Of a stretch of 64,000 nt of DNA, positions 48,080 to 52,938 are shown one piece after another. The stretch covers positions 146,839-210,838 of the forward strand of contig JAILGE010000031.1 of the NCBI GenBank assembly GCA_024697065.1, in the 5' to 3' direction. The translations under genes were made by a program, and so were the position numbers. The notes beneath the pieces are model-generated. The model saw only the letters and a list, made by a program, of their open reading frames with translations. It searched no databases and was not told where the DNA came from. The stretch is from Lachnospiraceae bacterium (GTDB lineage Bacteria; Bacillota; Clostridia; Lachnospirales; Lachnospiraceae). Each line of letters begins with the position of its first letter. Position 1 is the first letter of the stretch.

Positions 48080-48628
48080 ATGTCCGGTAAAGTTAGAACA
48101 GTTTCTTATGTCAGGTCAACAAATGCAAATCTGTATTTTTTGTTTGTCGGCTTTGCATTATTGGCCATGGGTGTCATCGTCAATCATTCCGATTCGGTTA
48201 ACACAGGTACGGGAAAGGAGGTCAGCCCTGCATACGGTCTGATCTTTGCTCTGTTAGGGCTCTGGATGCTGAGTATGGGTATTATCGCTTTGTTTATTGA
48301 ACCGGCGAGGAAAAGAGCGATGATAGATGAACTTAAGAAAAAAAATGATACGGTTGTGGCAACAATAGTCGGATTTCCGAGAAATCCGGGTAACAGGGTT
48401 GATAGAATGGCACCATATCTTTTGGAGTGCCGTTATCGGGATGATGTTACGGGACTTGTATATATATATTACGGAAATGCTTTCCGTATGCCGGATAACA
48501 GGCTTTTGGGATGCAGAGTGACAGTTTATACGGACAAGACCGATCCTTCAAGATATTACGTTGATATGAGCCGGATCGAGAATCCTGCTATGACTCAGGG
48601 AACATACATGGGAGGTGTAGCAAGATGA
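48080..48628 (+). CDS. DUF3592-like membrane protein (tentative)
   Basis: Two TM segments followed by a beta-rich domain (TVVATIVGFPRNPG...YLLECRYRDDVTG...VTVYTDKTDPSRYYVD). Confidence 0.6.
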   Translation: MSGKVRTVSYVRSTNANLYFLFVGFALLAMGVIVNHSDSVNTGTGKEVSPAYGLIFALLGLWMLSMGIIALFIEPARKRAMIDELKKKNDTVVATIVGFPRNPGNRVDRMAPYLLECRYRDDVTGLVYIYYGNAFRMPDNRLLGCRVTVYTDKTDPSRYYVDMSRIENPAMTQGTYMGGVAR

Positions 48629-50181
48629 AATGTCCTTCCTGCGGCGGAGAACTCCGTTTTGATATATCGCTTCAAAGATCAGTATGCGATTCCTGCGGAA
48701 ATACATATGATCCCTCGGCACTTAACAGCAATGATACTTCGGCAGAAGTAAACCGTGTTGCAGATGATGCTTCGGGACAGATAGATGTCATCGAATATAC
48801 ATGCCCGCAGTGCGGCGGAGTCCTGTATTCTGCTGATGAGACGGTGACGAGTTACTGTTCTTTCTGCGGATCGCAGGTGTTATTGTCATCCAAGATGGTG
48901 AAGATGGCAAAACCTCAGGGAGTTATCCCTTTTATAAAGACCAAGGAACAGTGTAAAGAAGCTTTCGTCAATAAGCTAAAAAGAACAAGATTCCTGCCTA
49001 AAGAGTATCTGTCATCCGGAAGCTCTGAGAATTTCAGAGGGATCTATATGCCATACTGGGTATATGATGCCTCGGCCCACGGGGATTTCAGCGTACCTTT
49101 TACAAGAGAGATCCGCCGCGGCAGTCACAGTTACAGGCAGGTATATAATTGTACAGGACATGTGGAAGCCGATATTTCGGGCATATCTTTTGATGCCTCA
49201 TCTGCATTCTCGGATAATGTAAGTGAAACAATAGCACCTTACGGTATCAGAAAGATGCAGGATTACGATCCGGCGTTCTTCTCCGGCTTTTATGCGGATT
49301 ATGCTGACGTACCTTCGGAAATATATGCGGATGATGCGCGCAGCTGCGCAAAGGAAAGAGTTATAGATAAGATCGCGGAAGATCCGGCGCTGGCCGGCCT
49401 GGACAGACCGGATGTTGCTGATATTCCCACATTGCCTGTAGTACTTCCAAGGAGAGCAAAGCTTGCATATTTCCCTGTATGGTTTATGGCATGGCGAAAG
49501 AAGGACCGTGTCGCTTATGCAGTTGTTAACGGACAGACAGGTAAAGTGAGCTGTGATCTTCCTGTAGATAAAAGCAGATTCTTCCTGTTAACTCTGGCTT
49601 TGCTGATACCTGTATATCTGTTCCTCTTACTGATGTTTCCGTCAATGACCGGAGGAGACGTGATGAAGTTCATGCAGTTTATGGAGATGATCTGTTCATT
49701 GATGCTCTTTTTAAACTGCGGTACATTGATAAAAAAAGAAGAACACACAGGCGATAAAGGTCTGAACAGAAAAGATCCGGAAAAAGAAGCGGCGAGAAAG
49801 AAGAGAAAAACCGTAATAGCGGTAACGGTATTGTTGATAGCACTGTTTTCATGGCTGCTTACTTTTATATTGATCTATGTTTTTGCTTTTTTGATCAATA
49901 CGGGAATACTGGCGCCGCTGTTCATCTTTTTTATGACGGTACTGACTTTCCCGCGCCTCACAAGGATAAGGCATGGTGGAGGTATCGCGGTAAGTACGAT
50001 AATTTTATTGATAACTTCTTTTATCGCGGAAGTTATCTATGTCATGGAACCTACAGAGGCGGTCTGGTATTTTGTTATATCAGCCATTATGACTGCGGGA
50101 ATAATGTTTGCATTAATGTCATTACTGACTATCCTTAACCGTATGACAACAAGACCGCTTCCGCAGTTTGCAAAAAGATGA
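48625..50181 (+). CDS. Zinc-ribbon (TFIIB-type) membrane protein
   Basis: CPSCGGELRFD...CDSCG and CPQCGGVLYS...CSFCG; C-terminal TM segments. Confidence 0.8.
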   Translation: MKCPSCGGELRFDISLQRSVCDSCGNTYDPSALNSNDTSAEVNRVADDASGQIDVIEYTCPQCGGVLYSADETVTSYCSFCGSQVLLSSKMVKMAKPQGVIPFIKTKEQCKEAFVNKLKRTRFLPKEYLSSGSSENFRGIYMPYWVYDASAHGDFSVPFTREIRRGSHSYRQVYNCTGHVEADISGISFDASSAFSDNVSETIAPYGIRKMQDYDPAFFSGFYADYADVPSEIYADDARSCAKERVIDKIAEDPALAGLDRPDVADIPTLPVVLPRRAKLAYFPVWFMAWRKKDRVAYAVVNGQTGKVSCDLPVDKSRFFLLTLALLIPVYLFLLLMFPSMTGGDVMKFMQFMEMICSLMLFLNCGTLIKKEEHTGDKGLNRKDPEKEAARKKRKTVIAVTVLLIALFSWLLTFILIYVFAFLINTGILAPLFIFFMTVLTFPRLTRIRHGGGIAVSTIILLITSFIAEVIYVMEPTEAVWYFVISAIMTAGIMFALMSLLTILNRMTTRPLPQFAKR

Positions 50182-50194
50182 CAGGAGGGTGAAA

Positions 50195-50593
50195 ATGAAC
50201 AGTATCACATATGTACATTTTTCATTGGACGAACTTCTTTCCGTAGGTGAGAATGCGGATATGGCTCAGGACAGCGCATTTTTATATATTTCTCTTATTT
50301 TTATGTCAGTAGTGATATCGATGTTCGCAAGCTTTCTGATCCTTAGGAATTCAAGGAAAGAAAAGAGTGCCGGTATCGCGGAAATAAGCGGAGGACTTTT
50401 AGAGTCGGTAAAAGTGAGCGGAGTCAGCACCACAGACGCTGTACCGAATATATCCGTAAATGAACTGATTGGATATTTTAATGGAAATGCGGATCACAGA
50501 AATGTGAACCGGATGAACCCGAACCAAAATATCCCTGATCAAACGTTCTATAACCAAAGAAACAACGGTCAGGGGAACATAAGGAATAATTGA
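50195..50593 (+). CDS. Small membrane protein, unknown
   Basis: One TM segment (FLYISLIFMSVVISMFASFLIL); RBS AGGAGGG before ATG 50195. Confidence 0.65.
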   Translation: MNSITYVHFSLDELLSVGENADMAQDSAFLYISLIFMSVVISMFASFLILRNSRKEKSAGIAEISGGLLESVKVSGVSTTDAVPNISVNELIGYFNGNADHRNVNRMNPNQNIPDQTFYNQRNNGQGNIRNN

Positions 50594-51638: not shown

Positions 51639-51647
51639 GTGTTTGTT

Positions 51648-51765
51648 AAATGATTATCATCAAATGATTTTCTTAAAATGATTTTTTAAAATGATTTTTT
51701 AAAATGATTTCTTTAAATGATTTCTTTAAATGATTTCTTTAAATGTTTTTTTAATTGATTTTTTC
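51648..51765 (+). repeat. AT-rich tandem repeat, unit ~13 bp (AAATGATTTCTTT / AAATGATTTTTTA)
   Basis: 7 consecutive units beginning AAATGATT (51648, 51662, 51676, 51689, 51702, 51715, 51728) plus degenerate copies. Confidence 0.93.
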
Positions 51766-51778
51766 CGGAGGTATAAAT

Positions 51779-52861
51779 ATGAATCAATTTAAATTACCGT
51801 ATCATCTTATCGTTGAAGCAGGAGCTTTTGATCATATCCCGGAAAAGATGTGTGACGCGATACCGGGAATAGAAAAGAAAAAAGTGATCTTCGTAACGGA
51901 AGAAAATCTGAAAAGCATATTTGAAGATCGTATCAAAGGGATATGTGACCAGTTTGAAAACAGCGAAGAATATCTTATACAGAGAGCTGATTATGACAGC
52001 GCTGTCGCTCTGGCAAAATATATAACTATGAATGATATAAATATGGTTATAGGATTCGGCGGCGGAACGGTACTGGATCTTGCAAAGTTTGCCGCTTTTG
52101 TGAGCAAGACAGTATATATATCCCTTCCGACGACATTATCCAATGATTCGCTGGCTTCTCCGGTGGCTGTGCTTGGAACTACCGGTAAGGCGAGAAAGAG
52201 TTTTAAGTGTACGATCCCCCATGCCATAATGGTAGATGCGGATATCATAAAGTCCGCGCCCTCAAGACAGCTCCTTTCCGGAATAGGAGATACGATATCA
52301 AAATATACAGCGCTGTATGACTGGAAACTTGCTTCGGAGAAAGATACGGAGCGGGTGGATGATTTTGCGTATATGCTCTCAAGAATGGCTTTTGACTCCA
52401 TATGTTTCTTTGAAGGCGGACATTCTGAAATGACTGAAAATGAACTGAAAACAAACTCCTTTATCCGTCGCCTGACACAGGCTCTTGTGATGGGAGGACT
52501 GGCCATGGAGATAGCAGGGAGCTCGAGACCCAGTTCCGGATCGGAACATCTTTTCTGTCATGCTCTTGAAGAGAATTTCAGTGAGGAAGTGAATATCCCT
52601 CACGGAATCGCTGTGGCAATGGGAAGCTATCCAGCAGCAATATTCCAGGGACGTAATCATGAAAAGATAAAGAATGTCATAAAGCAATATCATATTCCCG
52701 TAAAGCCTTCGGATAACAAACTGGAACGCGATATCTTTATTGAGGCATGGCAGAAGGCGTCGGCATCAAGGGCTGACAGATATACGATCCTGAGAGAGAC
52801 CGATCTTTCGAAGGACAGGCTTGGAAGATTATATGACGAGATGGAAGAAATCTTTTCATGA
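51779..52861 (+). CDS. Glycerol-1-phosphate dehydrogenase-like (EgsA/AraM family) iron-containing alcohol dehydrogenase
   Basis: GFGGGTVLDLAKFAA, SLPTTLSNDSLASPVAV, GSSRPSSGSEHLFCHALE; RBS GGAGG before ATG 51779. Confidence 0.82.
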   Translation: MNQFKLPYHLIVEAGAFDHIPEKMCDAIPGIEKKKVIFVTEENLKSIFEDRIKGICDQFENSEEYLIQRADYDSAVALAKYITMNDINMVIGFGGGTVLDLAKFAAFVSKTVYISLPTTLSNDSLASPVAVLGTTGKARKSFKCTIPHAIMVDADIIKSAPSRQLLSGIGDTISKYTALYDWKLASEKDTERVDDFAYMLSRMAFDSICFFEGGHSEMTENELKTNSFIRRLTQALVMGGLAMEIAGSSRPSSGSEHLFCHALEENFSEEVNIPHGIAVAMGSYPAAIFQGRNHEKIKNVIKQYHIPVKPSDNKLERDIFIEAWQKASASRADRYTILRETDLSKDRLGRLYDEMEEIFS

Positions 52862-52894
52862 GAGAGCTTTTGTTTGGATTATATAGCTTATGAT

Positions 52895-52938
52895 AAAAAA
52901 CTCCGTGTGATGTCTTAAACATACACACGGAGTTTTTT
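52895..52938. terminator. Bidirectional terminator
   Basis: AAAAAACTCCGTGTG ... CACACGGAGTTTTTT. Confidence 0.88.

Follow-up and report, generated by a model that had tools for sequence, protein, structure and literature searches.

A 13-bp AT-rich tandem array separating an acyltransferase gene from a G1PDH-like gene in a Lachnospiraceae bacterium, probably an ordinary lineage-specific minisatellite

Tandem repeats that lie upstream of bacterial genes, or between them, are known from several systems, and these provide the frame for the locus considered here. The first are the bacterial intergenic minisatellites and VNTRs, i.e., non-coding tandem units longer than 10 bp with a homogeneous interior and degraded ends, the VNTRs being defined by their variability from strain to strain. 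Then come the MIRU repeats of Mycobacterium tuberculosis, a dispersed family with units of 53–77 bp that lengthens the gap between the co-directional genes senX3 and regX3, and for which promoter activity has been reported, driving the independent expression of regX3 (PMC4213456). Finally, phase-variable promoter repeats, such as the AT-rich TAAA repeat of nadA in Neisseria (PMC2791445) and the tandem repeats found in M. tuberculosis promoters (PMC12817950), are placed upstream of the gene that they control.

The array described here lies in a window of 64,000 nucleotides, which is the whole stretch of DNA that was analyzed and to which all coordinates refer, and it shares some features with each of these systems. 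It has the unit length, the interior, and the ends of a minisatellite, although the only variation seen for it is a difference in presence between species. Like the MIRU repeats, it extends the distance between two co-directional genes, but its units measure 13–14 bp, are unique in the genome, and gave no promoter in a strict scan. With the nadA repeat it has AT-richness in common, whereas it has no mapped promoter or repressor operators, and the gene that follows it encodes a conserved enzyme in a presumed operon. Its position resembles that of the senX3-regX3 repeats more than that of the nadA or M. tuberculosis promoter repeats.

The array, read directly and with a script on the forward strand, occupies positions 51648–51753 with eight full head-to-tail units, two of 14 bp and six of 13 bp, and continues into a degraded ninth that ends at 51764. 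Units 1 and 2 (51648–51675) are AAATGATTATCATC and AAATGATTTTCTTA, units 3 and 4 (51676–51701) are two identical copies of the 13-mer AAATGATTTTTTA, and units 5–7 (51702–51740) are three identical copies of the 13-mer AAATGATTTCTTT, the exact number of identical units being one that short-read assembly could affect in this draft genome of 44 contigs. These are followed by the diverged and degraded unit 8, AAATGTTTTTTTA (51741–51753), and by the partial, degraded unit 9, ATTGATTTTTT (51754–51764). Tandem Repeats Finder (TRF) delimits the array as 51642–51764, with a period of 13, 9.4 copies, and a score of 144, where 200 shuffles never scored above 68; likewise, its lag-13 match is 0.69, while 2000 dinucleotide shuffles reached at most 0.58 whatever the lag. 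The array is real and far above shuffled controls and, as an earlier sequence-only reading had proposed, its unit length is not divisible by 3 and it stands directly upstream of the RBS. Some details of that reading need correction: the run of at least seven near-perfect units up to the RBS stands, while CCGGAGG starts at 51765 and it is GGAGG that starts at 51767; the identical trio (units 5–7) is not the most 3′ one, as the diverged unit 8 comes after it; and the units, said to contain no ORF, do contain short ATG-initiated frames of 3–20 amino acids, none preceded by a Shine-Dalgarno (SD) sequence or in frame with the gene.

Since it lies outside coding sequence, has a unit longer than 10 bp, and exceeds chance expectation, the array is structurally an ordinary intergenic minisatellite. 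On the 211-kb contig that was sampled, the remaining arrays with a TRF score of at least 60 sit inside long open frames, which leaves this one as the prominent non-coding array of the contig. Searched with up to 3 mismatches, its own genome matched the pattern at the array locus only, and a comparable array was found in none of 34 congeners or 397 genomes of the family, which gave isolated weak matches only. The several genomic copies expected of a dispersed, MIRU- or REP-like family are therefore missing, and a dispersed or mobile repeat was rejected because there is no second genomic copy, no copy in viral contigs, and the congeneric matches come from a palindromic element that has no relation to the array. 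This element is an imperfect palindrome of ∼100 bp, REP- or MITE-like and dispersed, with ends GTTTACATAACTC / GAGTTATGTAAAC and core GTTCCAAAAATGATTTCATTATATGATGTTTTTGGAAC, which three genomes of the genus carry at several sites (G007, G008, and G034; L038, L039, L041, L042, L043, and L045 around position 1500).

Regarding its setting, the array lies in the 140-nt gap that separates an acyltransferase 3 gene from the G1PDH-like gene closing a tight run of co-directional genes, so that the earlier placement immediately upstream of the G1PDH-like gene holds, but the gene is not free-standing and the array is intercistronic. The run, all on the forward strand, includes genes for a 182-aa membrane protein (48080–48628), a 518-aa zinc-ribbon membrane protein (48625–50181), a 141-aa protein (about 50168–50593), and the acyltransferase 3 family protein (PF01757; 50595–51638), which is 79% identical to its orthologue in Lachnospiraceae bacterium XPB1003 and is the last before the array. 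The 518-aa protein matched no Pfam family above the cut-off, and it has several relatives per genome across the genus, with eight matches in its own genome. The XPB1003 orthologue of the 141-aa protein (L035:1801–1925) carries a terminal Asn/Met-rich coding repeat, with NMN.MN units of 15 bp, which is much less regular in the window version. Downstream, a symmetric hairpin, ACTCCGTGTG...CACACGGAGT, followed by a T tract (52893–52936, read directly), separates the convergent G1PDH-like and DUF1294 genes and is kept in XPB1003; it is absent from the output of the consensus scan, which allows loops of 3–8 only, and it is probably a two-way terminator of the operon. As the upstream genes overlap or stand 1 nt apart, the set resembles a single operon that ends at this conserved hairpin, and its genes are probably co-transcribed.

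The gene that follows the array (51779–52861) encodes a Fe-ADH_2 family dehydrogenase of 360 aa. Its best PDB match is a G1PDH (5fb3, E 2.9e-46), whereas it scores 244 bits against NF002022, the equivalog for NAD(P)-dependent glycerol-1-phosphate dehydrogenase, for which the cut-off is 413; “G1PDH-like” is thus the right name. Its start is the SD-supported ATG at 51779, which aligns with the starts of relatives, and for this reason a coding extension from the in-frame TTG at 51755, inside the ninth unit, was rejected. Compared with XPB1003, the gene has a dN/dS of about 0.03, with dS near saturation, and the sequences indicate that it is under strong purifying selection between both species. 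What a switch here would act on is thus a conserved enzyme and no surface antigen.

XPB1003 is the closest sequenced species, with a G1PDH-like protein 91% identical, and it shares gene content and gene order at this locus, but its gap between the acyltransferase and G1PDH-like genes is 25 nt (AGCAAAGAAAATCGGAGGTAGATAT) instead of 140 nt, with no array units at all. The other spacers of the operon differ by 0 nt between the two species. Of the 43 conserved, co-directional, short-spaced gene pairs that were compared, this one shows the greatest change in spacer length, +115 nt against a median of 0. The comparisons with other species drew on pattern searches and on portions of a single contig from each. 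The SD sequence GGAGG (51767–51771), 7 nt before the start codon, has identical motif and spacing in XPB1003, so that both the RBS and the stretch from it to the start codon are conserved, and neither is part of the array. Among the 35 genomes of the genus that were searched, the gene order appears to be kept only in the window's own and in XPB1003; as no third species appears to keep it, the polarity rests on XPB1003, which could have lost the array. XPB1003 also has tandem repeats outside frames of at least 100 aa at unrelated sites, namely 72 bp × 2.2 (L061:16253–16410, i.e., G027:C20:56253–56410) and 15 bp × 3.5 (L061:12614–12666, i.e., G027:C20:52614–52666), which indicates that intergenic repeats confined to one lineage are no rarity among these genomes.

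Because the closest sequenced relative lacks the repeat in the same gap, the array is most likely ordinary lineage-specific repeated DNA. We consider it likely, with a probability of roughly 0.7, that it is an intercistronic minisatellite of one operon, made by slippage or recombination and neutral or nearly so, whose main predicted effect is to uncouple the translation of the two genes. In this scheme, replication slippage or recombination would have amplified an AT-rich unit of 13–14 bp in the acyltransferase/G1PDH-like gap, stretching the gap from about 25 to 140 nt and leaving the RBS untouched. The identical neighboring units (3 and 4; 5, 6, and 7) and the degraded ends are what internal duplication, by either process, would be expected to leave, and the identical units suggest a past change in copy number. 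The origin would be neutral or nearly neutral. As to the consequences, translational coupling is reported to fall with small increases in the stop-to-start distance, even under 20 nt (PMC12548453); given this sensitivity, the most likely outcome is that both genes are translated independently in the window species, coupling being lost with the longer distance and the second gene presumably initiating from its own SD. Expression would then hardly respond to changes in copy number. The two genes are possibly coupled in XPB1003, as single folds predict a paired SD there.

Among the other explanations, an internal weak promoter or an AT-rich UP-like element, which would express the G1PDH-like gene independently of the upstream genes and without switching, is unlikely, though it fares best. 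Its precedent is the regX3 case described above, and a relaxed search found several TAAAAT hexamers (5/6 to TATAAT) in units 2–4. These hexamers, however, have poor −35 partners, with 8/12 matches in all, the relaxed search as a whole returned only weak matches (8–9/12), and the 13-bp period is out of phase with the DNA helix. The strict consensus scan, which can miss weak promoter activity in AT-rich DNA of more than 100 bp, detected no sigma-70-like promoter in or near the array.

Much the same evidence bears on the switch that had been proposed for this locus, in which slippage changes the copy number, and with it promoter spacing or leader length, turning the G1PDH-like gene up or down. 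The array is near the RBS, its internal units are identical, its unit length is not divisible by 3, and variable-copy promoter tandem repeats are documented in other bacteria (PMC12817950; PMC2791445). Still, consensus scans place the array neither within nor next to a promoter, as phase-variable promoter repeats would be, and the 25-nt gap of XPB1003 leaves no room for one. Gene order and the termination hairpin are common to both species, and the gene of the sister species apparently relies on the operon promoter upstream, so that a promoter-spacing switch has no supporting anatomy. The SD-to-start distance is outside the array, and the modeled probability of RBS opening, about 0.2–0.4, shows no trend between 0 and 13 central units; a copy-dependent pairing that hides the RBS was rejected on the same models. 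Moreover, slippage is expected to be less frequent in an array in which most units have diverged. We therefore regard the switch as very improbable, and nothing in this sequence-based analysis shows such a role for the array.

A candidate of similarly low probability is an element of the mRNA, i.e., a U/A-rich, weakly structured segment that would set differing cistron levels as an endoribonuclease cut or a ribosome standby site. In agreement with it, the array leader folds no better than shuffles (z +0.95) and the SD is predicted to be more accessible than the paired SD of XPB1003 (P open about 0.35 vs about 0.00), but this comparison is between single predictions, one for either sequence, and opening costs are similar for shuffled arrays of equal length. 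A structured RNA or riboswitch was rejected on the shuffle-level fold and on the lack of any Rfam family match for the array, as was a chain of coupled mini-ORFs through the ATGA of each unit, whose frames of 3–20 aa vary from unit to unit, have no SD, and never enter the gene in frame. Least probable of all is a role as a rheostat, in which the young minisatellite would disrupt the translational coupling of the operon and give the G1PDH-like enzyme an independent, copy-number-tuned expression.

Should the array have no effect, it neatly illustrates how a minisatellite may grow inside an operon with the downstream RBS left intact, and it can be compared with a syntenic, repeat-free relative. 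Should it tune expression, it would represent a site at which control can evolve in a gut-type anaerobe, and one away from the surface-antigen genes for which switches of this sort are mostly reported.
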